Source: Arthrobacter sp. ok362 (GTDB lineage: Bacteria; Actinomycetota; Actinomycetes; Actinomycetales; Micrococcaceae). Taken from it: 64,000 nt of DNA. The position numbers and the translations under genes are program-made. The notes beneath the pieces were generated by a model, which ran no database searches, had not been told where the DNA came from, and was given only the letters and a program-made list of their open reading frames with translations. Of this stretch, positions 12,511-50,212 are shown piece by piece (position 1 is the first letter of the stretch; every line of letters begins with the position of its first letter). The stretch spans positions 124,001 through 188,000 of the forward strand of contig NZ_FNGC01000003.1 in NCBI RefSeq assembly GCF_900102785.1, given 5' to 3'.

Positions 12511-12515
12511 CCCAC

Positions 12516-12549: not shown

Positions 12550-12620
12550 CGGCCGGCGGGTTGTCCACATAGCGGCCCGCGGGGCTAGGGCCGAGGGCGC
12601 CCTCGGTCCAGGATCGGAGA

Positions 12621-30964: not shown

Positions 30965-33900
30965 AGGGCCGTCCCGAGCGGCGTGCTGCGCAGCGGAGAT
31001 CCGGACCTGCCCGCCGGCAGGCGGGACCGGAACGAGCTGGGCGGCAGGGCCAGGCGCCGCCAGCTGGACTGGCGTCGCACGGCCTTCGGAAATGACGACT
31101 GCGCGTCCCGGCGGAGGACCGTGCTCCGTTTCGAACCGGACCCCGAACGGCTCGCCGTCCATGAGCCCCCGCGGGCGAATCAGGACCGCCTGTCCCTGGC
31201 TGCGCGCGATGGCAGCCAGATCCACCCGCTGCCCAAAGGCCGGGCCAAATCCCGCGGTGAGGATCACCCTCCAGCCAAGGCTGTTTAGGGCCGCCAGGGC
31301 GCTGTTGGCTTCGCGTGCGAGCAGGTCAGCGTCGTCTGCGAGCGCAATCGCTGTCCGGTCCAGGGTGCCCGCGAGGGCGCTGGCGTGGAGCCCGGACCAG
31401 TACTGGCCGGGATCGGTTCCCGGCTGCGGCGCGAGCCAGGCACAGGTCGGGTTCATTCCCGGGAGCGCGGCCAGCAGCGTGCTTTTTCCGGCGCCGGGGC
31501 CGCCGAGGACCGCGAGGACGCCGCCGGCCGGCAACCGAATCCCGTGCGGCCGGAGTTCGTCTCCGCCGACCCCGAGAAGGAGTGCGGCCGCCGGGACCGG
31601 GAGGTGCGCGGCGGCCGGGATGGCTGCGGGCAATCGGGCGGGCGGCGGGATCCTTTGCCCCGGCCCCGGGTTGCCGCATTGGGCCAGCACCTCGTCCACG
31701 GTCACCAATACAGGCAGCGCGTCCACCCGGAAGGGCCTCGTCGTGACGGCTCCACCTGCGGAGTGCCGCCCGCCCACGACCATTGGTTCGAAGAGTTGGG
31801 CCGCGTGCCCGGTCGCCAAACGAGCTGGCACAAAGGCGCCGAACACGGCCACGCGGCCGGCGACCGGCTCCAACGCCGGAAGTCGCGGCCACGCAAGCCG
31901 GCCCTCGTCGGTAGACCCTGCTGGAAAGAAGATCCGGTTGGGCAGCCCGGCGAAAAACCGCGCGGTCACGAGCTCACGCTCGCCAGAGACGATGACCGTA
32001 ATCCCTGCCCGGGAACCGTCCCGCACAATGTCATGAACGAGGTCTTCAGCCCACGCCAGCGGCCCGGAACGGAATGCCGAAACCCAGGCGCCCCAGCCGC
32101 TGAGCACCAGGACCAGCCGGGGCCGCGGGCCGGCCGTGTGCCCACTAAGCCGCGACGTGGTTTCTTGGGCGATCCGCCGCAGCACCCTCGCGGCCCGGCG
32201 CACTTCATGCAGGCCGACCACCGTGCCGACCCGGGGCGCGGCCGCGGCGGCGCTGAACACACCGGCGGCGTCGAGTACGTACAGATGCGACTCCACCTTG
32301 GCGGTCAGGAGCTGATCGACAGCCAGGGCCAAGGCGGTATCGCCGGCGCCGGCCTCAGCGCCGACGAGGCCCAGATGCCCGTGCCCGGCAGGACTCCAGC
32401 CCAACTCCGCGACGCGTTGGAGTTCCGGCAAATCCACGCGCCCCAGCCGGACCGTGTCCCCGTCCGCGGGCCCGGGACCCGGATGGGGCAGCAGAGCCGG
32501 CAGCGGATCTGCCACCGGCCGGCGGGGCGGCCGGCCGCCGCGGTCCTGCCACAGGCCCACAGTAGTGTCGATGAGCAGGGCCGCCCCCTGTGTCGGAGTC
32601 AGGGCGGCGCCGCCGTCGTGAGCTTCACGGGCGCCGGCGTCGGCCCGGACACCGGGTACTGCCGGCGCCCGCGTCAGAAATTCCGTGACCGTGCGCACCG
32701 AGACCGCTCCATCTGTCCGTGCGGCGGTCCGGGGCGTCAGGGTGGCCGTCTGGAACTCTTCCGGGGCCTGTGCGCCGCGGATCAGGAACGCCCGCCCCGG
32801 GCGTGTGATGGGGATGGCGGCCGCGAGCCCGGAGCCCATGATGTCGAAGGATTCGGGGCCGGACTGGACCCGGAGGGCGGTGCAGGTGGTCACGTTGGCC
32901 CTGATATCGGCGTTCAGGGCTCCCTGCGGGCGCTGCGTGGCCATGATGAGATGGATCCCCAGTGACCGGCCGATGGCGGCAATCCTCATGAGCTCGGACA
33001 GTGCGCCTGGCACTTCGTCCACCAGGATCCTGAACTCGTCAACGACAATGACCAGATAGGGGACCGGCGGTCCCGCCGCCGGCGACGACTCATAGGCCGC
33101 GAGATCAGGGGCATCCACACGGGCGAGCAGTTCCTCCCTTCGCCGGACTTCGGCCCGCAAGGAAACGAGCGTGCGCTCCACCTGCGCAGCGGCCAGATCC
33201 GTCAGCATGCCGACGCAGTGCGGGAGCCCGGTCAGCGGGCCCAGGCCCGAGCCGCCCTTGAAGTCAATGAAGAGCAGGTTGACCCGGTCCGGCGGATGGC
33301 TGGCCGCGAGGCCGGCGGCAAGAGTCCGCAAGAACTCCGATTTCCCGGAACCGGTGGTTCCTGCGACCAGGAAGTGCGGGCCGTCCGCCTTCAGATCGAT
33401 CCGCAGGGTCCCCAGGCTCCCCGCGCCCACTGGCGCACCCAGCCCGGCCTCCGCGCCGGCCCGGGACCAGCGCCGGGAGATGTCCGGCGCCGCGAGGGGA
33501 AGAACGTCGGCCAGGCTGCAGTGCTGCGGGATGGCCGGCGGGAGAGTCACCGCAGCGTGTGTGGCATTGAAGCCCCGGCAAAAGCGGTCGAAGACCACTG
33601 CCGGGACCAGATCCGGGACGAAGTCCATGGGCGGGGCTCCGCCGGCGATGAGCGTGCTGCGCCGGCCGAGGACAATGCCGGGGTGTTCTGCGGGACCCTG
33701 CTCCGGCGAGCACTCGATCACCCTCCACCCGTGTGCCGTGGCCAAAGTCCGGAACGCCGGCCCTGCACCGGCGATGTCCGGCCCGGGCGCGGCCCCTGAC
33801 TGCCCGGGAGTGCTCCAAAAGATGAGGACTCCGCGGTCGAATCCGTCGCCCGGACCAGCCGCCTCGCCCGGACCCCCCGCCTCGCCCGGACCGCGAGTCA

Positions 33901-35296
33901 ACCCGCCGGGACCGGCAGCCAACAGGGCCGCGGTTGTGGCGTCATTTGCGGACATTGTGACCCCGGGCAGGAAGCGCGCTGAGAACGGGACAGTGTCCGC
34001 CGGGCCGTGAAGCAGCAGGCGGGTCCGGCCGCCGAGGGGATAGGAAGCCAGTTGCAGGATGAATGAGCGCACCAGCCCGGCCACGGCGGGCGCCGGGCCG
34101 TGGATGGTCACCACCGCCGGCGCCGGGTCCAGGGTCAGGGGGACCTGGCCGAGCGGCGGTGGCCGGAAGCCGGAGTCGGGTGGTTCCAGCCGGATGTTCG
34201 CCCTCTGATCCGCCAGGCCGAGCCGCAGGCAGATGTGCCGTGGCTCTCCGTGGGGTACACGGGCCGCCGGGGATGCCCCGGCCGCGCAACCGATGGCCAG
34301 GTCCGCCGCGGAAGGAGCGGCCTGCCGGCGTCGTTCCCTGTCCTGCAGGGCGGCCTCCGCCACAGCGGCGTTGAGCTCGCGGCGCTGCCGACGGCCCGAA
34401 AGGAACGGGACGAGGACGGACACGCCAGAGACTGCGGTGAAGGCCAGGAACATCCACATGCCGGTGAGAAGCGCAAGGCCCACGCCGGCCAGAAGCGGCA
34501 GCACCGCGGCCAGCGCTGTGGCGACCCGGTGGCTTGAGGCGGCGGTGCCGCGGATGACCAGCGGCGCGCCAACACTGGAGCCTGCAAGCGCCGTGACGGA
34601 GTCCGTGGCAGCGTTGGGCACCACAAGAGGCCCGAGCCGGAGCGAGATGGTGGAGTCGCCGCAGCGGATCGAGGACGCCGTGGTCACCGGGACCATTCGC
34701 ACCTTCCGGCCGTCGACGCTGGTTCCGTTCGCACTGCCGAGGTCCACGATCGTGACGTCGGAGTCCGAGACGTCCAGGCGCGCGTGCTCCCGGGAAAGTG
34801 CGGCATCCGGGATCACGATCCCGGTACCGCTGCGTCCGATCCGGAACTGCCCCCTCCGCAGCGCGACAAGCGTGCCTGCGCCGGGACCGCTGTCCACGGC
34901 GAGCAGCAACGTGGCAGTTTCCGGCCGGCCGGGCCCGGGCCGGGATGCTGCTCCCGACGTATTAGCCAGCACAGCACCTTCAGCCAGCACAGCACTTTCG
35001 ACCAGCACGGCATTTTCAACCAGGACTGCACCGGGGACCAGGGGAGGCTCGCCAACAATCATGGCGGCGAGCGGGACTCCCCGGACGGACAGCCCACCGG
35101 TCCCGTAGCGCCGGGCGATGGCGGACTCTAAGTCCGCGCCCGGGCACGGTTCGGGGACCTCGACGGACAGCTCAATGAGCTGCACGTCCGGCGTCGAACC
35201 GGATGTGGGGGTGCTCTGCATGAGGGTGCTGGGTACGAGAGTGCTGGGTGCGAGAGTGCGGGGTGCGAGAGTGCAGTGGAAAATCATCCGGGGCAT
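30932..35296 (-). CDS. FHA-FtsK/SpoIIIE ATPase, EssC/EccC-like
   Basis: This 1454-residue protein resembles the membrane ATPase of type VII secretion. Order: repetitive N-terminus, FHA phosphopeptide domain (IGRSGTGIVIPDAALSREHARLDV, LGSANGTSVDG), two membrane helices (VATALAAVLPLLAGVGLALL; MFLAFTAVSGVSVLVPFL), then three ATPase modules: first with Walker A GTTGSGKS and YLVIVVDEF; second with degenerate loop GAEAGAGDT; third with GGPGAGKST. Three tandem modules separate it from the DNA translocase FtsK. No WXG100 substrate or other secretion gene is near. ATG 35296 follows AGGAAAGG; a second ATG 9 nt inside is equally good. The gene spans the whole gap between the membrane protein and glf. 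Confidence 0.82.
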   Translation of the reverse strand: MPRMIFHCTLAPRTLAPSTLVPSTLMQSTPTSGSTPDVQLIELSVEVPEPCPGADLESAIARRYGTGGLSVRGVPLAAMIVGEPPLVPGAVLVENAVLVESAVLAEGAVLANTSGAASRPGPGRPETATLLLAVDSGPGAGTLVALRRGQFRIGRSGTGIVIPDAALSREHARLDVSDSDVTIVDLGSANGTSVDGRKVRMVPVTTASSIRCGDSTISLRLGPLVVPNAATDSVTALAGSSVGAPLVIRGTAASSHRVATALAAVLPLLAGVGLALLTGMWMFLAFTAVSGVSVLVPFLSGRRQRRELNAAVAEAALQDRERRRQAAPSAADLAIGCAAGASPAARVPHGEPRHICLRLGLADQRANIRLEPPDSGFRPPPLGQVPLTLDPAPAVVTIHGPAPAVAGLVRSFILQLASYPLGGRTRLLLHGPADTVPFSARFLPGVTMSANDATTAALLAAGPGGLTRGPGEAGGPGEAAGPGDGFDRGVLIFWSTPGQSGAAPGPDIAGAGPAFRTLATAHGWRVIECSPEQGPAEHPGIVLGRRSTLIAGGAPPMDFVPDLVPAVVFDRFCRGFNATHAAVTLPPAIPQHCSLADVLPLAAPDISRRWSRAGAEAGLGAPVGAGSLGTLRIDLKADGPHFLVAGTTGSGKSEFLRTLAAGLAASHPPDRVNLLFIDFKGGSGLGPLTGLPHCVGMLTDLAAAQVERTLVSLRAEVRRREELLARVDAPDLAAYESSPAAGPPVPYLVIVVDEFRILVDEVPGALSELMRIAAIGRSLGIHLIMATQRPQGALNADIRANVTTCTALRVQSGPESFDIMGSGLAAAIPITRPGRAFLIRGAQAPEEFQTATLTPRTAARTDGAVSVRTVTEFLTRAPAVPGVRADAGAREAHDGGAALTPTQGAALLIDTTVGLWQDRGGRPPRRPVADPLPALLPHPGPGPADGDTVRLGRVDLPELQRVAELGWSPAGHGHLGLVGAEAGAGDTALALAVDQLLTAKVESHLYVLDAAGVFSAAAAAPRVGTVVGLHEVRRAARVLRRIAQETTSRLSGHTAGPRPRLVLVLSGWGAWVSAFRSGPLAWAEDLVHDIVRDGSRAGITVIVSGERELVTARFFAGLPNRIFFPAGSTDEGRLAWPRLPALEPVAGRVAVFGAFVPARLATGHAAQLFEPMVVGGRHSAGGAVTTRPFRVDALPVLVTVDEVLAQCGNPGPGQRIPPPARLPAAIPAAAHLPVPAAALLLGVGGDELRPHGIRLPAGGVLAVLGGPGAGKSTLLAALPGMNPTCAWLAPQPGTDPGQYWSGLHASALAGTLDRTAIALADDADLLAREANSALAALNSLGWRVILTAGFGPAFGQRVDLAAIARSQGQAVLIRPRGLMDGEPFGVRFETEHGPPPGRAVVISEGRATPVQLAAPGPAAQLVPVPPAGGQVRISAAQHAARDGPLKGGRGSGSP
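34966..35037 (-). repeat. Four 18-nt tandem repeats in the FtsK-like gene
   Basis: Units start at 34966, 34984, 35002 and 35020 (CCAGCACAGCACCTTCAG and variants) and encode hexapeptides of the form VENAVL, VESAVL, AEGAVL before the FHA domain. Confidence 0.85.
35222..35281 (-). repeat. Four 15-nt tandem repeats at the start of the FtsK-like gene
   Basis: Units start at 35222, 35237, 35252 and 35267 (GAGAGTGCTGGGTGC and variants) and encode TLAPR/TLAPS/TLVPS/TLMQS-like pentapeptides right after the first residues. Confidence 0.85.
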
Positions 35297-35363: not shown

Positions 35364-38731
<3,368 letters not shown>

Positions 38732-38732
38732 C

Positions 38733-39614
38733 GTGACAACCACGATTTCCGGGGAATTGACCCGCCCGGGTCTCGGCGGTGGATTTCGGGATCTTCGCCA
38801 GTCCAGTTTTCTGCTGAAACTGCTGGTCCGCAAGGAACTGAAGGTCCGCTACCGCGGCTCCGTCCTGGGCCTCCTCTGGTCCTATGTGAAGCCCGGTGTG
38901 CAGTTTGTCGTGTTCTACGTGGCCTTGGGCGTCTTCATGGGCCTCGAGCGCAGTGCACGCAACCCGGACGGCCTCTCGAACTATGCCGTGTATCTCTTCT
39001 CCGGAATCGTGCTGATCAACTTCTTCTCTGAAGCCCTCGGGAACTCCGCACGATCGATCGTGAACAACGGCAACCTCATCAAGAAGATCTATCTTCCCCG
39101 GGAGCTGTTTCCGGTGGCATCGGTCTGGGTGTCGGCTGTGCATTTCTTCCCCCAGCTCGTTGTCCTCGTGATCGGATGCCTCTTTGCGGGGTGGCATCCG
39201 GACATGTTCCAGCTGCTGGCCGCGGTTGGCGGATTCGCCATTGTGGGCTTCCTTGCCACCGGGCTTGGCCTGCTTTTCGGTGCCGCCAACGTGTATTTCC
39301 GTGATTCGGAAAACCTCGTTGACATGCTCCTGATGGTGGCGACCTGGGCGTCGCCCGTCATGTACTCCTGGACAATGGTGCAGGCAAAGCTGGGCCCCGT
39401 TTTCTTCGCCATCTACCAGGCAAACCCCATCACGGTGGGCGTCGAGCTGTTCCATTATGCTTTCTGGTACCCCACCACTGACGGTTCTGCCGCGATGCCG
39501 CCGAACCTGTTCAGCCTGTGGCTGCCGATCGGCCTCGTCATTTCGCTGGTGGTCCTGGTTTTGGGACAGCTAACTTTCCGGCGGCTTGAGGGCCGCTTCG
39601 CTCAGGAGCTGTAA
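38733..39614 (+). CDS. wzm: ABC-2 type polysaccharide export permease, Wzm-like
   Basis: This is the channel subunit of a lipid-linked glycan exporter. The 293-residue protein has the amphipathic N-terminal interface helix (LRQSSFLLKLLVRKELKVRYRGS), then six membrane segments with the conserved YLFSGIVLINFFSEAL and YFRDSENLVDMLLM loops. In mycobacteria the same pair exports the galactan precursor. GTG start is 1 nt after the glfT2 stop; the ATPase gene follows with no gap. Confidence 0.9.
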   Translation: MTTTISGELTRPGLGGGFRDLRQSSFLLKLLVRKELKVRYRGSVLGLLWSYVKPGVQFVVFYVALGVFMGLERSARNPDGLSNYAVYLFSGIVLINFFSEALGNSARSIVNNGNLIKKIYLPRELFPVASVWVSAVHFFPQLVVLVIGCLFAGWHPDMFQLLAAVGGFAIVGFLATGLGLLFGAANVYFRDSENLVDMLLMVATWASPVMYSWTMVQAKLGPVFFAIYQANPITVGVELFHYAFWYPTTDGSAAMPPNLFSLWLPIGLVISLVVLVLGQLTFRRLEGRFAQEL

Positions 39615-40340
39615 ATGGCAAGCGCGATCGAAGTTTCCAATGTCAGCAAGGAGTTCGTGCTCCGCCACACCCGTTCCATCAAGGAGGCGGTTGTGTGGCT
39701 CGTGAAGGGCCGCAAGGGTGATCTTTCCAAGAAGTTCCACGCCCTGAAGGACGTCTCCCTCATGGTGGAAACGGGGGAGACCGTGGCCCTGCTGGGCCTC
39801 AACGGCTCCGGCAAATCCACCCTGTTGAAGCACATCTCCGGCGTCATGCTCCCGGACTCCGGCAGTGTGTACACGCGCGGGCGGGTGGCTGGCCTGATCG
39901 AGGTCGGAGCGGGCTTTCATCCTGACCTGTCCGGCCGCGACAACGTGTACCTCAATGGAGCGATCCTGGGGATGACGGAGAAGCAGATCAACGAGCGATT
40001 CGACGCGATCGTGGAATTCTCCGAGATTGGCGAATTCATCGACACGGAGGTCAAGTTTTATTCATCCGGCATGTACCTGCGCCTGGCTTTTTCCGTGGCC
40101 GTTCACACCGACCCCGAGGTCTTCCTGATCGACGAAATCCTCGCCGTCGGAGATGAACCGTTCCAGCGCAAGTGCATAGCCAAGATTCAGGAACTGGCAG
40201 AAAAGGGCAAGACCCTCGTCGTCGTCAGCCACGACCTGGACCTGGTGTCCCGGATCTGTGCCCGAGGTGTCCTGCTTGAGCACGGAAATGTAATGTTTGA
40301 TGGGCCGATCAGCGAGGCGGTAACCCGGCTCCGCAACTAG
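39615..40340 (+). CDS. wzt: ABC polysaccharide export ATPase, Wzt-like
   Basis: This is the ATPase of the Wzm exporter. The 241-residue protein has Walker A GLNGSGKST, an SSGMYLRLAFSVAVH signature typical of Wzt/RfbE, and Walker B VFLIDEILAVGD. It lacks the C-terminal carbohydrate-binding domain of O9a Wzt, so chain-end recognition is not expected from it. It starts right after the wzm stop and ends the first operon of the glycan locus. Confidence 0.92.
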   Translation: MASAIEVSNVSKEFVLRHTRSIKEAVVWLVKGRKGDLSKKFHALKDVSLMVETGETVALLGLNGSGKSTLLKHISGVMLPDSGSVYTRGRVAGLIEVGAGFHPDLSGRDNVYLNGAILGMTEKQINERFDAIVEFSEIGEFIDTEVKFYSSGMYLRLAFSVAVHTDPEVFLIDEILAVGDEPFQRKCIAKIQELAEKGKTLVVVSHDLDLVSRICARGVLLEHGNVMFDGPISEAVTRLRN

Positions 40341-40440: not shown

Positions 40441-41730
40441 GTGAAGATTGCTGTAATTGCGTTGGGTAAGATCGGCCTGCCCTTGGCCGTCCAGTTTGCA
40501 TCCAAGGGTCATGAGGTCGTCGGCGTCGACGTTAACCGGCAGGTTGTCGACCTCATCAACGCCGGAACAGAGCCATTTCCTGGCGAAGCCCGGTTGCAGG
40601 AAAAACTGGCCGAGCTGGTGCCGGCAGGCAAGCTCCGGGCCACGACCGATTACGCGGACGCGGTCCCCGAAGCGGACGTTGTAGTTCTCGTCGTGCCGCT
40701 GTTTGTCGACGCGGACGCAAATCCTGATTTCGGTTGGATGGACGCGGCGACCGCCGAACTGGCGAAGCACCTGACCCCTGGCACCCTGGTGTCCTACGAA
40801 ACCACCCTTCCCGTCGGCACCACCCGGACCCGGTGGAAACCGGCCCTGGAATCGGCCTCGGGCCTGATCGAGGGGCAGGACTTCCACCTTGTGTTCTCGC
40901 CGGAGCGCGTGCTGACCGGCCGGGTGTTCGAGGACCTGCGCAAGTACCCCAAGCTGGTGGGCGGCCTGTCGGAAGAAGGCGCAGCCAAAGCCGTCGAGTT
41001 TTATCAGGCCGTGCTGGACTTCGACGAGCGGACGGATCTGGCCCGGCCGAATGGCGTCTGGGACCTGGGGTCCGCCGAGGCGTCGGAGATGGCGAAACTG
41101 GCGGAAACCACCTACCGCGACGTGAACATTGGACTCGCCAACCAGTTTGCCCGCTATGCCGCCACGGCAGGCATCGACATCTACCAGGTCATCGAGGCCG
41201 CCAACTCCCAGCCCTACAGCCACATCCACACACCCGGAATCGCCGTCGGCGGACATTGCATCCCCGTGTATCCGCGGCTGTACCTCTGGAACGATCCGGA
41301 GGCCACGGTGGTGCGCGCAGCCCGCGCGGCCAACGCCGACATGCCGGCCTACACCATCGGGCTGCTCGAGGGAGCCTATGGCGACCTGACAGACGCCCGT
41401 GTGGTGGTCCTCGGCGCTGCATACCGCGGCGGCGTCAAGGAGACGGCGTTTTCCGGAGTCTTCGACGCCGTCAAGGCACTCGAACTGCGCGGCGCCACCG
41501 CGCTCGTCCATGACCCGCTGTACACCGACGAGGAACTCCAGAAGCTGGGCTTCCAGCCCTACCACCTGGGGGAGCCGGCGGACGCGGCCGTAGTCCAGGC
41601 AGACCACGCCGAGTACCGCACGCTGGGGCCGCAGGACCTCCCGGGTGTCCGGGTGCTCATCGACGGCCGCAGGATAAGCAGCCCCGAGGCGTGGGACGGG
41701 GTCCAGTACCGCGTCATCGGCAAGGCATGA
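40441..41730 (+). CDS. Nucleotide-sugar 6-dehydrogenase, WbpA/WecC-like
   Basis: It oxidises the C6 alcohol of a UDP-sugar to the acid with two NAD+. The 429-residue protein has the N-terminal Rossmann motif (VIALGKIGLPLAVQFASKGHEVVGVD), the central helix with KLAETTYRDVNIGLANQF, and catalytic C273 in GGHCIPVYP. The following three genes suggest the substrate is UDP-GlcNAc rather than UDP-Glc. GTG start follows AGAAAAGG at a usual distance. A 100-nt gap separates it from wzt, so it may begin a new operon. Confidence 0.85.
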   Translation: MKIAVIALGKIGLPLAVQFASKGHEVVGVDVNRQVVDLINAGTEPFPGEARLQEKLAELVPAGKLRATTDYADAVPEADVVVLVVPLFVDADANPDFGWMDAATAELAKHLTPGTLVSYETTLPVGTTRTRWKPALESASGLIEGQDFHLVFSPERVLTGRVFEDLRKYPKLVGGLSEEGAAKAVEFYQAVLDFDERTDLARPNGVWDLGSAEASEMAKLAETTYRDVNIGLANQFARYAATAGIDIYQVIEAANSQPYSHIHTPGIAVGGHCIPVYPRLYLWNDPEATVVRAARAANADMPAYTIGLLEGAYGDLTDARVVVLGAAYRGGVKETAFSGVFDAVKALELRGATALVHDPLYTDEELQKLGFQPYHLGEPADAAVVQADHAEYRTLGPQDLPGVRVLIDGRRISSPEAWDGVQYRVIGKA

Positions 41731-41778
41731 CCGCGGTAGATTCGCCGATCGCTTCTTCCCTTTGACAGGAGATTCACG

Positions 41779-42375
41779 ATGAATAACATTGCCCCGAGCG
41801 CTGATGTTTCGGACCGCGCCGTGCTGGGCGCCGGTACCAAGATCTGGCACCTGGCCCAGGTGCGCGAGGACGCCACCCTGGGAGAGAACTGCATCGTCGG
41901 CCGCGGCGCCTACGTAGGCACCGGTGTCCAGATCGGCGACAACACCAAGATCCAGAACTACGCCCTGGTTTACGAGCCCGCCAAGCTGGGAAAGGGCGTC
42001 TTCATCGGGCCCGCAGTGGTCCTCACGAACGACACCTACCCCCGCTCTGTCAGTCCTGATGGATCGTTGAAGAGCGCGCACGACTGGACCCCGGTGGGCG
42101 TCACAATCGAGGATGGAGCGTCCATCGGCGCTCGAGCCGTCTGCGTGGCACCGGTGACGATCGGACGCTGGGCGACCATCGCCGCGGGCGCTGTCGTCAC
42201 GAAGGATGTGCCCGCCTTCGCCTTGATGGCCGGGGTGCCGGCCAAACGGCTCGGTTGGGTCGGAAAGGCCGGCTTCCCGCTGCGTGAGGCGGACGGGTTC
42301 TGGGTGTGCCCGGAGACGGGCGCCAAATATGTTGAAGAAGAAAATCTCCTGAAAGAGGCAGAGGACAACGCATGA
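41779..42375 (+). CDS. Left-handed beta-helix N-acetyltransferase, WbpD-like
   Basis: It would acetylate the 3-amino group of a UDP-sugar acid with acetyl-CoA. The 198-residue protein is built of hexapeptide turns (GENCIVGRGAYVGTGVQIGDN; IGRWATIAAGAVVTKDVPAFALMAG) and ends with the family's VCPETGAKY. ATG start after ACAGGAG. It overlaps the aminotransferase gene by ATGA. Confidence 0.85.
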   Translation: MNNIAPSADVSDRAVLGAGTKIWHLAQVREDATLGENCIVGRGAYVGTGVQIGDNTKIQNYALVYEPAKLGKGVFIGPAVVLTNDTYPRSVSPDGSLKSAHDWTPVGVTIEDGASIGARAVCVAPVTIGRWATIAAGAVVTKDVPAFALMAGVPAKRLGWVGKAGFPLREADGFWVCPETGAKYVEEENLLKEAEDNA

Positions 42376-43463
42376 GCCTGGACTTTATCCCCGCAGCAAA
42401 GCCGATTATCGGCGATGAAGAGCGGGCGGCCGTAGATGCCGTACTCGCCTCCGGAATGTTGGCCCAAGGCAAGCAGGTAGCGGAGTTCGAAACCGAGTTC
42501 TCCTCGGTGCTCGTCGACGGCCGCGCGGCCGTCGCCGTGAACTCCGGCACCTCCGGACTCCACCTTGGTCTCCTCGCCGCCGGCGTTGGACCTGGCGACG
42601 AAGTTATCGTGCCGTCCTTCACCTTTGCCGCGACCGGCAACGCCGTGGCACTGACCGGTGCGACTCCGGTCTTCGCTGACATCGAGCTGGACCACTACAC
42701 CCTGGACACAGACCACGTCGCTTCGCTGATCACGGAGAAGACCAAGGGCATCATGCCGGTCCACCTGTACGGCCACCCCTTCGACGTCGAGGGCCTCGGC
42801 AAACTTGCCGCGGAGCGGGGCATCGATCTTTACGAGGACGCGGCCCAGGCGCACGGAGCGAGCTTCAACGACAAGTTGGTGGGCAGCTTCGGCACCTTCG
42901 CCATGTTCAGCCTGTACCCGACGAAGAACATGACCTCCGGTGAGGGTGGCATGGTCACGACGTCGGACGCCGCCGTCGAGCACAAGCTTCGGCTGCTGCG
43001 CAACCAGGGCATGGAGAAGCAATACGAGAACGAGATCGTCGGCTTCAACGCCCGCATGACTGACCTGCACGCCGCCATCGGCCGCGTCCAGCTCACCAAG
43101 GTGCTCGGCTGGACCGCGCAGCGGCGGCAGAACGCGGCATTCCTCGACGCCAACCTGGAGAACGTCGGAACCCCGGCAGTCAAGGCGGGGGCAGGCCACG
43201 TCTACCACCAGTACACGATCCGGGTTTCCGAGGACCGCGACGGGCTGGCCAAGGCGCTGCGGGACGAGTACAACATCGGAACCGGCGTGTACTACCCGGT
43301 CCCGAACCACCGGCTTCCGTCCTTCAACCGGACGGAAGATTTGCCGAACACGGAGACGGCCGCCAAGGAAGTGCTCTCCCTGCCGGTTCACCCGTCCCTG
43401 AGCCAGGACGACCTCGAGCGGATCGTCGCTGCGGTCAACGCCGTGGCCAAGGCCGGTGCCTGA
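42372..43463 (+). CDS. DegT/DnrJ/EryC1 family aminotransferase, WbpE-like
   Basis: This PLP enzyme would transfer an amino group from glutamate to the 3-keto group of the UDP-sugar acid. The 363-residue protein has the start FIPAAKPIIGDEERAAV, the PLP site with SLYPTKNMTSGEGGMV (the Lys binds PLP), EDAAQAHGA and the C-terminal GVYYPVPNHRLPSF. Coupled to the acetyltransferase by ATGA, and the oxidoreductase follows within 1 nt. Confidence 0.9.
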   Translation: MSLDFIPAAKPIIGDEERAAVDAVLASGMLAQGKQVAEFETEFSSVLVDGRAAVAVNSGTSGLHLGLLAAGVGPGDEVIVPSFTFAATGNAVALTGATPVFADIELDHYTLDTDHVASLITEKTKGIMPVHLYGHPFDVEGLGKLAAERGIDLYEDAAQAHGASFNDKLVGSFGTFAMFSLYPTKNMTSGEGGMVTTSDAAVEHKLRLLRNQGMEKQYENEIVGFNARMTDLHAAIGRVQLTKVLGWTAQRRQNAAFLDANLENVGTPAVKAGAGHVYHQYTIRVSEDRDGLAKALRDEYNIGTGVYYPVPNHRLPSFNRTEDLPNTETAAKEVLSLPVHPSLSQDDLERIVAAVNAVAKAGA

Positions 43464-43464
43464 G

Positions 43465-44460
43465 ATGGCGAATCTGCGGGTAGGCCTGATCGGACTGGGG
43501 ATGATGGGCCGGCACCATGCCCGGGTTCTTCGCGAGTTGCCCGGCGTCGATCTGGTGGCTGTGGCGGACGTCTATGGCGATCCGCACGGCGTTGCCGGCG
43601 GCTTGCCGGTGCTGTCCTCGGTGGAGGAACTTATTGCCCAGGGCCTGGACATGGCGGTCGCGGCCGTCCCGACGGGGATGCATGAGGAAGTCGGCCTGGC
43701 ACTGGCCGAAGCCGGCATCCACACCCTCGTGGAGAAGCCGATTGCCGAAAGCGCCGCGGCAGGCCAACGCCTCGTGGATGCTTTCGAGGCCAGGAACCTC
43801 GTGGGGGCCGTGGGCCACATCGAGCGCTTCAATCCCGCGCTGCAGTCCCTGCGGAAGCGGATTGAAGCGGGCGAACTCGGCGAGGTCTACCAGATCGCCA
43901 CCCGCCGGCAGGGTCCCTTCCCGTCGCGCATCGCCGACGTCGGGGTCGTGAAGGACCTGGGCACGCACGATATCGACTTGACCGCCTGGCTCGCCCAGAG
44001 CCGCTTCGAGTCGATCTTCGCCCATGTCACCACGCGCAGCGGCCGTCCGCATGAAGACATGGTGGCGGCGACCGGGCAGCTGGAAAGCGGCGTCATCACG
44101 AATCACCTGGTGAACTGGCTCTCCCCCATGAAAGAGCGGCTGACAATCGTCACCGGCGAAAAGGGCGCTTTCGTGGCCGACACGGTTACGGCGGACCTGA
44201 CGTTCTTCGAAAACGGCACCGTGGCCACGGAGTGGGAGTCCATGGCAGCTTTCCGGGGTGTCTCCGAGGGCAACATGACCCGGCTTGCAATCGCCAAACC
44301 AGAACCGCTGCGCACCGAGCACGAGGCCTTCCGCGACGCCGTCCTGGGGCTGCGCAACGACGTCGTGACCATGCGCGAAGGCCTGGACACGCTCGCGGTT
44401 GCCGAGGCCGTGCTGGAGTCCGCGCGCACCGGGCAGATGGTCAAAGTCGCCGCCTCGTGA
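43465..44460 (+). CDS. Gfo/Idh/MocA family oxidoreductase, WbpB-like
   Basis: This is an NAD(P)-dependent sugar oxidoreductase. In the inferred route it oxidises C3 of UDP-GlcNAcA before transamination. The 331-residue protein has GLIGLGMMGRHHARVL and the catalytic LVEKPIAES motif. ATG at 43465 lies 1 nt after the previous stop; a GTG at 43456 overlapping that gene is the alternative. The end overlaps the next gene by GTGA. Confidence 0.85.
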   Translation: MANLRVGLIGLGMMGRHHARVLRELPGVDLVAVADVYGDPHGVAGGLPVLSSVEELIAQGLDMAVAAVPTGMHEEVGLALAEAGIHTLVEKPIAESAAAGQRLVDAFEARNLVGAVGHIERFNPALQSLRKRIEAGELGEVYQIATRRQGPFPSRIADVGVVKDLGTHDIDLTAWLAQSRFESIFAHVTTRSGRPHEDMVAATGQLESGVITNHLVNWLSPMKERLTIVTGEKGAFVADTVTADLTFFENGTVATEWESMAAFRGVSEGNMTRLAIAKPEPLRTEHEAFRDAVLGLRNDVVTMREGLDTLAVAEAVLESARTGQMVKVAAS

Positions 44461-45623
44461 CAGCCCGTCCCCGATTGAGGGTCGCGGTCGCTACCCGGCT
44501 TTTCACGCCCGAAGTGGGGGCCGCTGCCTTTCGTCTCCAGGCGCTGGTAGACGGGCTGGTGGCCGCGGGGGCGGCGGTGCAGGTCGTGACGACCCGCGCC
44601 CCCGGCGGAGCCTCGGCCGGCAGCGTTCCGTTCGGAGTCAGCCGTTGGCCCGTGTTACGGGACCGGGGCGGCAACGTCCGCGGCTATCTCCAGTACCTGA
44701 GCTTCGACATACCGGCCTTCTTCCGCCTGCTGGTTCAGGGCGCGGATGTTGTCGTCTCCGAGCCGCCGCCCACCACCGGGCTGGTGGTGGCCCTCAGCAG
44801 CTGGCTGCGTCGCCGGCCGTTCGTGTATTACGCTGCGGACGTGTGGAGTGAAGCGCTGTCCGCAACTGACGTGCCCGGCGTCGTCATCGGCATGATGCGG
44901 CGCGTCGAAGGCTTCGTGCTGCGACGTGCTGCCTGCGTTATCGCCATTTCTGATGCCGTTGCCGAGCAAGTCGCGAAGTTCGACGTGCCGGCGGAGCGGC
45001 TCCGGGTGGTGGCCAACGGGGTCGACACCTCAGTCTTCAACCCCCAAGGCGAGGCCGCGGCCAGTGAGCGGCCATATTTCGCCTACACCGGAACCATCTC
45101 GGAATGGCAGGGAGCCGATGTTTTTGTCCGCGCACTGCCATTCGTGCAGCTGAAATATCCGGACGCGGAGATCCGCTTTTTCGGGCAGGGCACGGATGAG
45201 CCGGCCGTCCGGGCGCTGGCGGCCGAGGTCGCTCCCGGGAGCGTGGTTTTCGGCGGAGTCGTTCCGCCCCGGCAGGCTGCGGCCTGGCTGCGCGGGGCCG
45301 CAGCAGCACTCGTCAGCATCAAACCAGGTCAGGGCTATGACTTCGCCAAGCCGACCAAAATCTATGCGGCCGCAGGATGCGGGACCCGGGTGATATTTGC
45401 CGGGGCCGGCGAGGGGGCAGCAGTGGTGGCTGACAACGGACTCGGCGACGCCGTGGACCACGACCCCCATGCCGTGGCGGCTGCCATGATCGCCGCGCTC
45501 GAAACCGCCGACACCGGCCGCGGGCATCGCTCGCAGTGGGTGGCGGACCACGCTTCCCTGGCGGCAGCAGGGCAAGCGGCGGCGGCGGCCGTCATCGCGA
45601 CTGCGAAAAACGCTGGTCACTGA
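44457..45623 (+). CDS. Glycosyltransferase family 4, WbuB-like
   Basis: The 388-residue protein has a GT-B fold: N-terminal TRLFTPEVGAAAFRLQALVDGL, and C-terminal donor domain with PYFAYTGTISEWQGADV, FFGQGTDEPA and KPTKIYAAAGCG. The late KPTKIYA motif resembles transferases that use N-acetylated amino sugars such as WbuB. GTG overlaps the oxidoreductase stop; the frame is open further up but that is within the previous gene. Last gene of this plus-strand run. Confidence 0.82.
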   Translation: MTARPRLRVAVATRLFTPEVGAAAFRLQALVDGLVAAGAAVQVVTTRAPGGASAGSVPFGVSRWPVLRDRGGNVRGYLQYLSFDIPAFFRLLVQGADVVVSEPPPTTGLVVALSSWLRRRPFVYYAADVWSEALSATDVPGVVIGMMRRVEGFVLRRAACVIAISDAVAEQVAKFDVPAERLRVVANGVDTSVFNPQGEAAASERPYFAYTGTISEWQGADVFVRALPFVQLKYPDAEIRFFGQGTDEPAVRALAAEVAPGSVVFGGVVPPRQAAAWLRGAAAALVSIKPGQGYDFAKPTKIYAAAGCGTRVIFAGAGEGAAVVADNGLGDAVDHDPHAVAAAMIAALETADTGRGHRSQWVADHASLAAAGQAAAAAVIATAKNAGH

Positions 45624-45642
45624 GGATCCCGGGGGAGCAGCA

Positions 45643-45680
45643 GGGGCGGGAACGGACTTCTTGTCGCCCGTTCCCGCCCC
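45643..45680. terminator. Hairpin between convergent glycosyltransferase and epimerase genes
   Basis: GGGGCGGGAACG (45643-45654) pairs with CGTTCCCGCCCC (45669-45680). No T-run. Fits a two-way terminator in the convergent gap. Confidence 0.55.
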
Positions 45681-45698
45681 GGATAAGGGCCTGCGCCT

Positions 45699-45772
45699 CC
45701 TACTTCTTGCCGGACTCCGCGTTGGAGTTCAGCAACCTACTTCCTGCCGGACTCCGCGTTGAAGCTCAGCAG
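45699..45772. repeat. Tandem duplication of the 3' end of the epimerase gene
   Basis: Two 37-nt units starting at 45699 and 45736 differ at only a few bases. The second unit is the last coding segment of the epimerase with its stop; the first is an extra, untranslated copy with an identical stop triplet, shifted by one nucleotide relative to the frame. Confidence 0.85.
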
Positions 45773-46813
45773 CGCGTCCACGATCTTCTCGGCGGCGTGT
45801 CCGTCGCCGTACGGGGCCGCGTCCGTGGGTTCGGGAGCGGGCCGCTTCACTGTGTCGGCCAGGATGGAGAGGTCTTCGCTCACCAGGACGTTCCACCGCG
45901 ATTCGAGGGTCTCAACCCACTCCGTCTCGGGACGGATCGTCGTGCACGGTACCCGCAGCAGGAAGGCTTCCTTTTGCAGGCCTCCCGAGTCGGTGATGAC
46001 GCCTGCGCTGTTGAGGACGGCGTTGACCAGTTGCGGATAGGCCAGCGGCGGGCACACCCGGATACTTCCCTGCTCGAGCGTCAGTCCGTGACGTTCGGCA
46101 AAACTGACCAGGCGCGGATGGGCCAGCAGGAGGACAGGACGGTCCAGGGAGGCCAGGGACGCAAGGATGGACCTGAGGCGGGACGGTGAGTCCGTATTGT
46201 CCGGACGGTGGATCGTGCTGACATAGTATCCCTGCGGGGCCACGTCGAGGGGGAGCGGCTCCTGCCGGCTCTCCAGCAGGGCACGGACCTGGTACAGGAC
46301 GTCGGTCATGACGTCGCCGACGAGGACCGTCTTGGCGGCGAGGCCCTCGTTGGCCAGGTGGTCAACGGCCACGTGGGTGGGGGCCAGCAACAGGTCCGCG
46401 GCGTGGTCGGTCAGGACGCGGTTGTGTTCTTCAGGCATGCGCCGATTGAAGGAACGCAGCCCCGCCTCAAGGTGGGCCAGGGGTATGTGCATCTTGACCG
46501 AGGCTATCGCAGCGGCCAAGGTGGAATTGGTGTCGCCGTACACCAGTACGCAGTCTGGTTTGGCCTCTTCCAGGATCTCTTCGAGGCCCCCGAGCATGGC
46601 CCCGGTCTGTGCGCCGTGCTTGCCGGAGCCCACGCCGAGGTTGAAATCGGGCGCTGGGATACCCAGGTCACGGAAGAAGACATCGCTCATGAGTTCGTCA
46701 TAGTGCTGGCCGGTGTGGGCAATCAGATGCTCCGCACGGCCGGAGAGGGCTGAAGCGATCGGTGCGAGCTTTACAAACTGTGGTCTTGCGCCGACGACGC
46801 TGAGAATACGCAT
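45737..46813 (-). CDS. wecB: UDP-N-acetylglucosamine 2-epimerase, non-hydrolysing (WecB/WbpI type)
   Basis: It interconverts a UDP-GlcNAc-type sugar with its manno epimer. The 358-residue protein has RILSVVGARPQFVKLAPI, YGDTNSTLAAAIAS, HLEAGLRSFNRRMPEEHNRVLTDH, and ITDSGGLQKEAFLLRVPC. Sequence cannot tell UDP-GlcNAc (WecB) from UDP-GlcNAc3NAcA (WbpI) as substrate. The four-enzyme set on the other strand makes the second likely. It is the last gene of a minus-strand run that begins at 50212. GGGAGC precedes the ATG. Confidence 0.9.
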   Translation of the reverse strand: MRILSVVGARPQFVKLAPIASALSGRAEHLIAHTGQHYDELMSDVFFRDLGIPAPDFNLGVGSGKHGAQTGAMLGGLEEILEEAKPDCVLVYGDTNSTLAAAIASVKMHIPLAHLEAGLRSFNRRMPEEHNRVLTDHAADLLLAPTHVAVDHLANEGLAAKTVLVGDVMTDVLYQVRALLESRQEPLPLDVAPQGYYVSTIHRPDNTDSPSRLRSILASLASLDRPVLLLAHPRLVSFAERHGLTLEQGSIRVCPPLAYPQLVNAVLNSAGVITDSGGLQKEAFLLRVPCTTIRPETEWVETLESRWNVLVSEDLSILADTVKRPAPEPTDAAPYGDGHAAEKIVDALLSFNAESGRK

Positions 46814-46893: not shown

Positions 46894-48900
46894 TTAGCAG
46901 GCGTTGACCTTGTACAGTTTGGCCGCGCCTTGGTGGTCCACGAGTTCGACCTTTGCGCCCGGGGTTGCCAGCACGTTGTCGAACGCAGGGTAGGCCTGAG
47001 CCTCCACGAAGTTGAGGATGTAGAAGCGGCCGAAGTCGAGTATGTAGCGCACGTGCTCTTTCTTCGCGAGCTGACAGGTTTCAGCTCCCGCCTGCGACGT
47101 CGTTAGGTCCATCGCAATCTTGCGAAGATCGTCGTCGGGCCCGGGCGAAATATGATACTGGGTGACGTGGCGGCCAGAAATGGCGTAGGCCAGCGGTCCA
47201 CCGTTGAACGGGTTGACGCCGATAACGGCGTCCTTCGGAACGGTCGAATCGAGCCGGGACATCAGGGCGAACTCATCACTGGATACCGCCCAGCCCGGGA
47301 CAAAGGAATAAGAGTCCTTGATCTTGGTGGACACTGCGGTCAGCCCGGGGCTATGGACGCTATCCACCAGGGTGGATAGCGCGAGCGCAAGAATCGCGGC
47401 TGCTGCGACGGCGTACAGGGTCCCAGATCCCCGGAACTCAGGAAGGCCGGGCCGCCGGCCGGCGGAGCGTTTCGCGGCGATGCGCCGAAGCCATCCCCTG
47501 ACCGCGGACACCAGACCGTCCGCACCCACGCTGGCAAGAACAATCATGAACAACGGCACCAAGGCCGCGAGCCGGTAGGGGTCCTGGTACCAGCTGCCGA
47601 TCGTGAAGTGCCGGAAGCGACCCTGATACATGACGACGGCGACGACGTAGAGGGCAGCGGCAATGAGTGCGCAGGCAATAATCCAGCCGCCTCTCCGCCG
47701 CCAGATGATGGTGATTATGCCGACCAGGGCCGCCACCGAGGCGACCATTGTGTCGCCGCCGCCGAGGAGTGTGCCCGTGGCGACGTCGCCCACAGCCTGC
47801 TCCAGGGTCCGGCTGGGTTGCCAACTGTCAAAGTTAAGGAGCAGGGCCTGCCAGACGACGAGGAACGCTGCTGCCGAGGCCACCCCCCAGAGGACCACGA
47901 GCGCGATTGACCTGTTGCCGGCCTTGACGCGGATCCGGGCACGCAGCTGGGAGAACCATGCGGCGGCGATCAGCGGCACGGAGAATGCCAAGAGTGCCGT
48001 GACACCGTTGGGCTGCGACATGAACAACGCCGCAACCGCGATGGCCAGGAAGCACCAGAGGCTGACGTTGTCCAGGAATCTTTCGCGCCCGGCTTGGAAC
48101 AACCCCACGAGGACCAGCAGCGCCAGGGGCAGCAAGCTGTAGGCAAGGGTGTTGGGGTAGAGCGGGCCCCACTGGAGCAACTGAAAGGGGAACATCCAGA
48201 AGCCGCCGCTCAGGGCACCGGCAACCACAAGCGGCAGGACGCGGGGGCCGACGATGCCCCGGACCAGCATGATGCAGGCGAAGGGCCACAGGAGCGCGCT
48301 CACAGCCACGACCACGGCGTTCTCGCTGACAAAGACGTCGTTGTTGGTCAGCTGGGCAACGAGGGCCGCCAGCGAATGCCACACGGACGGGTAGATGGCA
48401 ATCCCGGCATCCGGGCTGAGCATCCGGCCCAACGTCAGTGACGAGGCGTTGCCGGTTTCGAGGATGTACCGGATGGCATTGAGGTGAAAAATGTTGTCGT
48501 ACACCTGGCCGAAATTTCCGGGCTTGCCGATGGCCGGGAGCAGGCGGTTGAATATCAGGGCGGAGCCTGCCACCATACCGCCCAGGATTCCCGCCCACTG
48601 GACGGCGGGCGCCACCGAGGCTGGCGCTACTGCGGAAACCCGTCCATTAAGGAATCTCCGTAGCAGGAATGCCAGGCCGGTGCAGACTGCTGTCACGAGC
48701 AGATAGCTGAAAAGTCCCCAGCCCAGCCGGAACAGTCCTCCCACCACGCCCGCGAGCCCGATGAGTCCGCAGGAAGCCAAGGGGGACATTGCCGCGCAGG
48801 CGAAGCCCTTGGCGCCCAGTGCCCTCGCCAGCACCAACCCGGGGAGAAACATCAAGAGTGCGGCCACGGCGATAGCGGGAAACGCCTGCCACCAGTTCAT
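46894..48900 (-). CDS. Polytopic membrane protein, DUF6541-like, possibly a glycosyltransferase
   Basis: The 668-residue protein has about 13 membrane helices, a first external loop with DNIFHLNAIRYILETGNASS and WHSLAALVAQLT, and a soluble C-terminal domain after the last helix (VGVNPFNGGPLAYAISGRHVTQYH). That layout matches DUF6541 proteins and GT-C enzymes in general; an acidic D in the first loop (YDNIFH) is where such enzymes hold the catalytic acid. The ATG at 48900 is set by AGGAG 6 nt upstream; the frame stays open further but without family character. It could transfer a lipid-linked sugar outside the membrane. Confidence 0.7.
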   Translation of the reverse strand: MNWWQAFPAIAVAALLMFLPGLVLARALGAKGFACAAMSPLASCGLIGLAGVVGGLFRLGWGLFSYLLVTAVCTGLAFLLRRFLNGRVSAVAPASVAPAVQWAGILGGMVAGSALIFNRLLPAIGKPGNFGQVYDNIFHLNAIRYILETGNASSLTLGRMLSPDAGIAIYPSVWHSLAALVAQLTNNDVFVSENAVVVAVSALLWPFACIMLVRGIVGPRVLPLVVAGALSGGFWMFPFQLLQWGPLYPNTLAYSLLPLALLVLVGLFQAGRERFLDNVSLWCFLAIAVAALFMSQPNGVTALLAFSVPLIAAAWFSQLRARIRVKAGNRSIALVVLWGVASAAAFLVVWQALLLNFDSWQPSRTLEQAVGDVATGTLLGGGDTMVASVAALVGIITIIWRRRGGWIIACALIAAALYVVAVVMYQGRFRHFTIGSWYQDPYRLAALVPLFMIVLASVGADGLVSAVRGWLRRIAAKRSAGRRPGLPEFRGSGTLYAVAAAAILALALSTLVDSVHSPGLTAVSTKIKDSYSFVPGWAVSSDEFALMSRLDSTVPKDAVIGVNPFNGGPLAYAISGRHVTQYHISPGPDDDLRKIAMDLTTSQAGAETCQLAKKEHVRYILDFGRFYILNFVEAQAYPAFDNVLATPGAKVELVDHQGAAKLYKVNAC

Positions 48901-49075
48901 TAATGCTCCTGCTCGTCCGAGAATTGCAGACTCGAGTCTAGCAAGCCGGGCGGGTGCCCTTGCGCCCGGGAGCCTCCAGCAGCGGGCGGGACGGTGGCGC
49001 GGGTTCGAACCGCGCGCCATCCCCACGTGAAGCACGATCGATCAGGCGGCCGGGTCGATCCCGAACGATTCCAAC

Positions 49076-50212
49076 TTAACGGAGCGCAAACACTCCCGAC
49101 TTCGTCCGCAACCTCTCGGCAACGTAGTGCCGCAGCACGGAGTCCGCCGAAAACATGGACAGTGGATTTTCCGGCGCCAGTTCGTCCAGCCTGCCGGCGT
49201 GGTTGTAACGGACGACGGCGGCACGCAACTGTGATTCGTCGTGCGCCATGGCGGCGGAGCGGCAGAGGGCGGCATCGCGGCGTGAGAGAGCCGGGAGCGA
49301 GCCGCCGGCCAGGTCGAGGAGCTGCATTTGGGCCTTGGCCCAAGCCGTGCGATCAGCCTCCGACCACACGGGTGTGTCGGGCGATCCGGACAGCGACCCA
49401 CGTCGCACCAGCGCTCCGATGCCATGGACCCGAAGGAGCTTCAGCGCAATCGTCCGGCGTTCGGCTGCAGTGGCTGCAGAGATCCACGGCGTCTGGACAA
49501 GGGCGTCAAGCCACAGAAACTCCTCCGCGAGGGGGCGGACTGCACTGGTCACCCGGGTGTCGCCTGACTCGTCGGTCTGGTGGTAGGCCGGCGCTGAATA
49601 TGGGTACGCGATGCGTCCTCCGCGGAACCAAAGCCTTAGCGCGGCTTCAAGGTCCTCACCGATGGCAATGCCTTCTGCGTAGCGAAATCCGCAGGCGAGC
49701 AACGCCTCGCGCCGCAGCAGGCCGTAGGGGACGCTGCGGTAGGCAAGGCCGTCCCTGACAGGATCCAGCACGGCGGGCTTTGACGGACGGATCCGCGGGG
49801 ACCGGAGGATGGTGCCTTCCGGGGTCCTCAATGGGGCAATGACGGCCGCTGCGCCCCGGGCCTCGGCCACCTTCCACCATGCCGCCAGGGAACCCTCCTC
49901 CAAGTAGTCGTCGGAGTCCAGGAAGCTGAGGAAAGTGGCCGCACTTCGGTCCAGGGCTGCGTTACGTGGCCCGGCAGGGGAGCGGGTGCCGTCGTTGTGC
50001 CCAAGCCAGGTGACGGCGTCGTCCGCCACCTGGGCGGAGGTGACGCTGTCCTTAATGGCCTCGACGGCGATGTTGTGGCAGACCACGGTGGCCCCGAGCT
50101 CCACGCCAAGTGCAGCGAGTTCCGTGCGCTGGGCCAGAATGGACTGCAAGCTCCTTTCCAGCGGCCGTGCCGGGTCATGCACCGGTATGACAACTTCAAT
50201 GCTGGGGATCAT
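49076..50212 (-). CDS. Glycosyltransferase family 2
   Basis: The 378-residue protein has a GT-A domain: EVVIPVHDPARPLERSLQSIL, GTRSPAGPRNAALDRS, metal site FLSFLDSDDYLEEG and GEDLEAALRLWFRGG. The C-terminal third is helical with no named domain. It is a paralogue of the divergent gene at 50268, sharing the unusual SPAGPxN motif and overall length. Starts the minus-strand run toward wecB. Confidence 0.85.
   Translation of the reverse strand: MIPSIEVVIPVHDPARPLERSLQSILAQRTELAALGVELGATVVCHNIAVEAIKDSVTSAQVADDAVTWLGHNDGTRSPAGPRNAALDRSAATFLSFLDSDDYLEEGSLAAWWKVAEARGAAAVIAPLRTPEGTILRSPRIRPSKPAVLDPVRDGLAYRSVPYGLLRREALLACGFRYAEGIAIGEDLEAALRLWFRGGRIAYPYSAPAYHQTDESGDTRVTSAVRPLAEEFLWLDALVQTPWISAATAAERRTIALKLLRVHGIGALVRRGSLSGSPDTPVWSEADRTAWAKAQMQLLDLAGGSLPALSRRDAALCRSAAMAHDESQLRAAVVRYNHAGRLDELAPENPLSMFSADSVLRHYVAERLRTKSGVFALR

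Follow-up and report, generated by a model that had tools for sequence, protein, structure and literature searches.

Five genes of Arthrobacter sp. ok362 predicted to make a di-N-acetylated mannuronic acid for a surface glycan

Five genes in Arthrobacter sp. ok362 very likely make uridine diphosphate (UDP)-2,3-diacetamido-2,3-dideoxy-mannuronic acid (UDP-ManNAc3NAcA), and a di-N-acetylated mannuronic acid in the surface glycan is the best reading of the set. The genes lie in a stretch of 64,000 nucleotides, called the window here (assembly GCF_900102785.1, contig NZ_FNGC01000003.1, positions 124,001 to 188,000), which belongs to contig 18 of a 4.7 Mb genome in 32 contigs. What was observed directly is that the genes are present, to which lineages they belong, which active-site residues they encode, how they are co-inherited, and that natural variants without the later steps exist.

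Four of the genes follow each other on the plus strand. They are a UDP-sugar 6-dehydrogenase (40441-41730, 429 amino acids; Pfam UDPG_MGDP_dh), a left-handed beta-helix N-acetyltransferase of the WbpD/WlbB kind (41779-42375, 198 amino acids; Pfam Hexapep), a DegT-family pyridoxal phosphate aminotransferase, predicted to be a sugar 3-aminotransferase (42372-43463, 363 amino acids; Pfam DegT_DnrJ_EryC1, 395 bits), and a predicted Gfo/Idh/MocA NAD-dependent 3-dehydrogenase of GnnA/archaeal-like type (from ATG at 43465, 331 amino acids, or GTG at 43456, 334 amino acids, to 44460; Pfam GFO_IDH_MocA). A 48 bp gap separates the first two, the next two overlap by 4 bp, and 1 bp lies between the DegT and Gfo/Idh genes (with the ATG start). 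The fifth gene, on the minus strand, encodes a non-hydrolysing UDP-sugar 2-epimerase (45737-46813, 358 amino acids; Pfam Epimerase_2, 300 bits). An earlier note on this DNA had placed the five genes and named their superfamilies, and the open reading frame (ORF) translations and Pfam classes bear this out, all five frames being intact.

From these observations we infer each substrate, the step order and the polymer. UDP-N-acetylglucosamine (UDP-GlcNAc) would be oxidised at C3 by the Gfo/Idh enzyme, transaminated there by the DegT enzyme and then acetylated at N3 by the beta-helix acetyltransferase. The dehydrogenase would next oxidise C6 to give the uronic acid (UDP-GlcNAc3NAcA, the gluco form), and the epimerase would finish by epimerising C2, a last place that can be assigned to it with high confidence. 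The sugar would become part of a polymer that probably also contains galactofuranose, and the adjacent Wzm/Wzt ATP-binding cassette (ABC) transporter would export this polymer to the wall. Taken as a whole, UDP-ManNAc3NAcA made from UDP-GlcNAc and built into an exported wall polymer is the best explanation, and a probable one.

ManNAc3NAcA in actinobacteria is not new, because it has been reported from two of them. By nuclear magnetic resonance (NMR) it is a constituent of the teichuronic acid of Streptomyces griseus, where the five enzyme classes of the utr locus (UtrD, UtrA/B, UtrJ, UtrH) are assigned by analogy to Pseudomonas (PMC13274773). NMR also places it in the matrix polysaccharide of Cutibacterium acnes RT5 (PMC6598116). 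In the genus to which C. namnetense belongs, 9/9 genomes, C. acnes presumably among them, have epimerase and Gfo/Idh homologues (60-64% identity). The interesting part may be the enzyme lineages and the step order that these may imply. Among the open-licence PMC papers listed, none dealt with ManNAc3NAcA from Arthrobacter or with a route in which amination at C3 comes first.

The 2-epimerase and the inheritance of the set

In a search against all PDB chains, the best match of the epimerase is the UDP-GlcNAc3NAcA 2-epimerase of Thermus thermophilus (342.8 bits), which accounts for the top five distinct PDB sequences (340-343 bits). The entries 1f6d and 1vgv, which we take to be Escherichia coli WecB, stand at the bottom of the PDB matches cited, with 116.6-116.8 bits. 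In the T. thermophilus enzyme, acceptance of the 3-acetamido uronic acid is ascribed to the replacement of Arg by Trp307, His/Gln by Tyr96 and Leu/Met by Ala18 (PMC10622841). The alignment places Trp299 and Tyr92 of the window enzyme at the first two of these positions. This means that the WecB-type Arg, which contacts the C3 hydroxyl, is Trp299 here, while it remains Arg in the two paralogous epimerases of the same genome (L085, L086); these read M/Q/R at the three positions and, in a match starting later, Q/R. The earlier note would have counted a best match of the gene at 45737 to a hydrolysing or WecB-only clade against its reading, and both the PDB ranking and Tyr92/Trp299 speak against such a match.

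The pattern L/Y/W (L16, Y92, W299) is kept in 80/80 actinobacterial epimerase loci, that is, the best 80 epimerase matches among the matches listed; the closest relatives among those listed are from Arthrobacter sp. ES3-54 (98%) and A. oryzae (97%). Outside the actinobacteria, Tyr and Trp occur together in 15/16 plasmid loci with an epimerase match, the third residue being Ala in all but one of these 15, which has Ser. Where annotated, the plasmid epimerases (H21-H60) are named wecB or UDP-GlcNAc 2-epimerase; such names may misstate the substrate, given Tyr and Trp in 15 of the 16 loci read. Two points weigh against the assignment of the window enzyme. The next PDB match, 4neq (249 bits), is named a UDP-GlcNAc 2-epimerase, and the third specificity residue is Leu16, not Ala, as in UDP-GlcNAc enzymes, and is Leu in all 80 actinobacterial loci.

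The inheritance of the genes was surveyed in 149 genomes drawn evenly from the family, with cut-offs of E 1e-40 for the acetyltransferase, 1e-80 for the Gfo/Idh enzyme and 1e-100 for both the dehydrogenase and the epimerase; relatedness was not corrected for, so the statistics are only a guide. Carriers decrease from 61 (acetyltransferase) through 47 (Gfo/Idh) and 41 (dehydrogenase) to 19 (epimerase), and the sets are perfectly nested. All 41 dehydrogenase carriers have the Gfo/Idh gene, the pair always lying within 8 kb. Among the 80 actinobacterial loci, all five genes fall within the retrieved stretch in 41, and the acetyltransferase, DegT and Gfo/Idh genes are adjacent in that order on one strand in 44 of the 46 loci holding all three, so the grouping is not due to chance. 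In 47 of the genomes behind these 80 loci, hand-picked and mostly with a partner gene unseen in the locus, the Gfo/Idh gene was found at E<=1e-40 in 44; the three genomes without it count against the proposed pathway. The product named by the earlier note, UDP-ManNAc3NAcA, is thus supported by the epimerase match (343 bits), the Tyr and Trp residues and the nesting.

The order of amination and oxidation

The earlier note had gone further and matched the genes one to one with WbpA, WbpB, WbpE, WbpD and WbpI of Pseudomonas. In place of the PAO1 proteins themselves, the yardstick was a plasmid operon of P. frederiksbergensis (L144), in which only wbpA is so named in the record and the other genes are called Wbp-type from operon context; further Wbp-type rows came from Sulfitobacter (L148), Deinococcus (L145), Limimaricola (L162), Ruegeria (L163), Spirosoma (L164) and Sulfitobacter faviae (L165). 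The match stands for two enzymes. The acetyltransferase is of the WbpD kind, with 44% identity (142 bits) to Deinococcus and 41% (140 bits) to Pseudomonas against 39% (95 bits) to Haloferax, and with 3mqg as best PDB match (129 bits; next 80). The epimerase is of the WbpI kind, with 47-51% identity to the Wbp-type rows and no clear preference between these and haloarchaeal lineages. The DegT enzyme shares its superfamily with the WbpE structure 3nyu (200 bits, ninth among PDB matches), and is nearer to the enzyme of Haloferax gibbonsii (47%) than to that of L144 (37%). The dehydrogenase and the Gfo/Idh enzyme belong to other lineages, and the gene order differs as well: dehydrogenase, Gfo/Idh, acetyltransferase, DegT and epimerase in L144, compared to dehydrogenase, acetyltransferase, DegT and Gfo/Idh in Arthrobacter.

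The Gfo/Idh enzyme aligns with that of L144 at 23% over 194 amino acids (25 bits), and with that of H. gibbonsii (L146) at 34% (137 bits). Three WbpB-type queries found no match in any of the 80 actinobacterial loci (E<=1e-5), and the genome has no second close copy, the next full-length match having 29% identity. The best PDB sequence match is GnnA of Acidithiobacillus ferrooxidans (7bvj, 79 bits), a UDP-GlcNAc 3-dehydrogenase. GnnA serves the 3-amination of lipid A in Gram-negative bacteria, where no uronic acid is involved. The motifs GHI(E/K)R..PA and HD are common to the window enzyme and GnnA and are absent from WlbA and the WbpB-type rows. The profile of the archaeal UDP-GlcNAc 3-dehydrogenase, NF040723, gives 217.8 bits with the window enzyme and matches all 36 members of the Gfo/Idh alignment (E<=0.001); the WbpB-type enzyme has no match to it at E<=1e-20. 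In the tree, the window enzyme groups with GnnA and the haloarchaeal and Gloeothece enzymes at 88/84, below the tool's 95/80 mark, while the seven WbpB-type rows form a separate clade (100/99) and WlbA stands apart from both. Long-branch warnings were raised for WlbA, for the Gloeothece enzyme, which has a long branch and lacks the GHIER motif, and for an inositol-dehydrogenase-like enzyme from the window's own genome.

The dehydrogenase has a rebuilt site (K219-x3-T223; GGHC273IPVY277P). The catalytic Lys and Cys are retained, the usual Asn is Thr and the usual Asp is Tyr; both Asn and Asp have functional roles in the UDP-sugar 6-dehydrogenase fold. All 70 readable copies, the one in the window and those of 69 loci (two partial matches were left out), have the Thr/Tyr site, whereas Asn and Asp are kept in five further dehydrogenases encountered among the loci (three from the same genome, L060 and L127) and in four aligned PDB dehydrogenases. 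The tree places the enzyme with those of haloarchaea, Priestia and Gloeothece (97/94), outside the clade of WbpA and TviB (100/98), in line with pairwise identities of 30% (166 bits) to L144, 38% (237 bits) to Haloferax (L146) and 39% (309 bits) to Priestia (L147). By identity, a Pararhizobium plasmid dehydrogenase (H61, 42%) comes first outside the actinobacteria. On plasmids with both genes, a Tyr-type dehydrogenase goes with a GnnA-like Gfo/Idh enzyme in 6/6 loci, which are haloarchaeal (L146, L149, L152, L155, L161) or cyanobacterial (L160), and an Asp-type dehydrogenase with a WbpB-type enzyme in 5/5 (L144, L148, L162, L164, L165); these loci were all taken from the top of similarity lists in a single plasmid collection and cannot be counted as independent. 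No Gfo/Idh gene was seen in the retrieved stretches of Priestia (Tyr type) and Haladaptatus (L159, Asp type).

In some genomes the gene set may stop short of the uronic acid. Six of the 47 Gfo/Idh-bearing family genomes keep the trio of acetyltransferase, DegT and Gfo/Idh genes with no 6-dehydrogenase within 20 kb of it, as judged with the window's enzyme, three paralogues from its genome, WbpA, TviB and the Haloferax, Priestia and Gloeothece enzymes as queries. Five of these six trios adjoin the same GLF, GlfT2, Wzm and Wzt genes.

Since the NF040723 matches, the trios without a dehydrogenase and the rebuilt dehydrogenase site all favour it, 3-amination before 6-oxidation, the reverse of the Wbp route, is given an even chance here; the lineages of the Gfo/Idh enzyme and the dehydrogenase suggest the same order. 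A broader proposal, held with a confidence just short of even, is that two routes lead to (Glc/Man)NAc3NAcA: the Wbp route and a "3-amino-first" route in actinobacteria, haloarchaea and some others. In the latter, a GnnA-like enzyme would oxidise UDP-GlcNAc at C3, amination and acetylation would give UDP-GlcNAc3NAc, a dehydrogenase of the rebuilt-site clade (Asn to Thr/Gly/Cys/Met, Asp to Tyr) would oxidise this at C6, and a separate epimerase, gained or lost, would convert the gluco to the manno acid.

The strongest competitor has enzymes of these other lineages working in the Wbp order, so that the dehydrogenase first makes UDP-GlcNAcA, the Gfo/Idh enzyme acts on that, and the product is the same; it is tentatively judged somewhat less than an even prospect. 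Much of the case for it comes from WlbA of Bordetella pertussis, which was solved with UDP-GlcNAcA and is nearly as close to the window enzyme as GnnA is, at 69 against 79 bits, or 80 against 94 on partial chains. In structure comparison the two are tied (Z 36.5 and 36.8; model pLDDT, the predicted local distance difference test, 91.8), and the best structural rows are other sugar oxidoreductases (2glx, Z 38.8). WlbA also differs from the WbpB-type enzyme (21%, 35 bits), standing closer to the window enzyme (28%, 80 bits, partial chain), which means that the substrate does not follow from the lineage. Further, the window enzyme does not reach the curated NF040723 cut-off of 450, although that of H. 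gibbonsii likewise scores only 230. The search around the six trios was confined to 20 kb, and a WbpB-type Gfo/Idh gene without an annotated 6-dehydrogenase within 6 kb occurs in Ruegeria. No annotated 6-dehydrogenase lies within 9 kb in Deinococcus either; neighbourhoods of this sort are therefore not unique to the GnnA-like type. The authors of the S. griseus study themselves assign a Pseudomonas-like route to its set (Cell 2025; PMC13274773). Set against the Wbp order are the GnnA motifs, the Gfo/Idh grouping (below the mark and with its warnings), the six dehydrogenase-less trios and the constancy of the Thr/Tyr site.

Among the known systems closest to the Arthrobacter set are haloarchaeal clusters. 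Those of H. gibbonsii, H. mediterranei (L155), Haloarcula pelagica (L152) and Haloterrigena turkmenica (L161) share with Arthrobacter the trio order, the Tyr-type dehydrogenase and a Gfo/Idh enzyme matching the UDP-GlcNAc 3-dehydrogenase profile (L146), and all except that of H. turkmenica have an epimerase. They differ in that the dehydrogenase lies downstream of the Gfo/Idh gene, the third epimerase residue is Ala rather than Leu, and identity to the Arthrobacter enzymes is only 32-34% (Gfo/Idh) and 38% (dehydrogenase, L146). With this pair of dehydrogenase and oxidoreductase it can be tested whether enzymes working in two different orders arrive at the same sugar.

One actinobacterium, Nocardioides phosphati (L060), seemed a possible bearer of a true Wbp set and was rejected. 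Its dehydrogenase is TviB-like (567 bits, cut-off 592) and lies beside a TviC-like 4-epimerase, and neither its stretch nor that from Leucobacter celer (L040) has a WbpB-type match (E<=1e-5). The genome of L. celer has no window-type Gfo/Idh gene at E<=1e-40 either.

The end of the pathway

Because the genes are nested and dehydrogenase carriers exist without it, the epimerase seems to be an optional extra in a gene set whose product would otherwise be UDP-GlcNAc3NAcA. One could suppose that the set in Arthrobacter ends at, or mainly serves, GlcNAc3NAcA and that the opposite-strand epimerase belongs to a different glycan. In favour of this, the epimerase is missing from 22 of the 41 family genomes with the dehydrogenase, and the teichuronic acid of S. 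griseus has GlcNAc3NAcA at its reducing end besides ManNAc3NAcA (PMC13274773). However, the dehydrogenase, Gfo/Idh and acetyltransferase genes accompany the epimerase in all 19 of its carriers, the epimerase is within 10 kb of the Gfo/Idh gene in 17 of the 19 (on another contig in two), and its substrate residues point to the 3-acetamido acid, making such an end point improbable. GlcNAc3NAcA also occurs in the N-glycan of Methanococcus maripaludis, whose second sugar is lost with the acetyltransferase MMP0350 (PMC2952790).

The polymers of the family include ones with N-acetylmannosaminuronic acid (ManNAcA), for example in Micrococcus luteus. A further reading has the epimerase make UDP-ManNAc and the dehydrogenase oxidise this to UDP-ManNAcA in the manner of WecB and WecC, leaving the trio to make a 3-acetamido sugar of its own. 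It is very unlikely: the profiles that favour it (TIGR00236 wecB, 255 over a cut-off of 210, and the UDP-ManNAc dehydrogenase UDPMaNacDH_Arch, the top NCBIfam equivalog of the dehydrogenase at 268, below its cut-off of 750) are set against Trp299 in place of Arg, two epimerases of WecB type elsewhere in the genome, which score 469 and 427 bits against that wecB profile, two WecC-like dehydrogenases with the N/D site, also elsewhere, and a dehydrogenase that tracks the Gfo/Idh gene and not the epimerase. The TIGR00236 name does not discriminate, since the Wbp-like L144 epimerase passes that profile too (323 bits), and the enzyme annotated wbpA likewise has the UDP-ManNAc dehydrogenase profile as its best equivalog (230 bits). 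Seven of the 22 epimerase-less genomes have no 2-epimerase match of any kind (E<=1e-15) and the other 15 have 20 matches, all Arg-type, so the dehydrogenase seems independent of UDP-ManNAc.

If the 3-amino-first proposal holds, related genomes would display GlcNAc3NAc, GlcNAc3NAcA or ManNAc3NAcA depending on how far their genes extend, a simple genomic read-out. In Streptomyces, a ManNAc3NAcA polymer is a receptor for umbrella-toxin lectins (PMC13274773). Toxin targeting might be easier to predict if the acid made by each soil actinobacterium, gluco or manno, were known.

Neighbouring genes and a second glycan region

Upstream of the set, on the same strand, are genes for UDP-galactopyranose mutase (GLF, 35367-36737), a GlfT2-like galactofuranosyltransferase (36734-38731), a Wzm-like ABC-2 polysaccharide exporter permease (38733-39614) and a Wzt/TagH-like exporter ATPase (39615-40340). 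Downstream, a GT4-like glycosyltransferase gene (44457-45623, plus strand; likely start GTG at 44457, the ORF opening at 44232) faces the epimerase gene and by its position is a candidate transferase of the sugar.

The S. griseus utr locus was compared at the level of its enzyme classes. It was assigned the same five for UDP-ManNAc3NAcA, but the Arthrobacter cluster differs in lying beside the Wzm/Wzt exporter, GLF and the GlfT2-like transferase. The locus of Streptomyces bobili (L078) has all five proteins at 57-70% identity and, as expected, one of its transferases contains a TarS linker domain. No TarS-like gene, whose product would attach the polymer to wall teichoic acid, was found among the subset of window ORFs scanned.

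In loci of close relatives (L005, about 11100-13500; L007 and L008, judged by spacing), extra glycosyltransferase-like frames lie between the epimerase and GT4-like genes; in the window this gap is 113 bp, without such frames. The glycan locus is thus different among close strains. Next to the epimerase on its strand is a DUF6541 protein of unknown function (46894-49035, 505 bits), which adjoins the epimerase in the nearest Arthrobacter loci (L005-L008) too, followed by a GT2-like protein (49076-50212, minus strand). Promoter and terminator scans were no richer than shuffles (1 against a mean of 1.6, and 8 against a mean of 10.4).

On the other side, a 1454-amino-acid FtsK/SpoIIIE protein with an FHA domain (30932-35296, minus strand), possibly EccC-like and of type VII secretion, adjoins the glycan cluster. 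A second glycan region of the genome lies on contig 13 at about 5-41 kb (L085, L086, L088, L090, L136, L137), and is where the two WecB-type epimerases are encoded, together with two dehydrogenases of the N/D type; it also has two CDP-glycerol glycerophosphotransferase-like genes.

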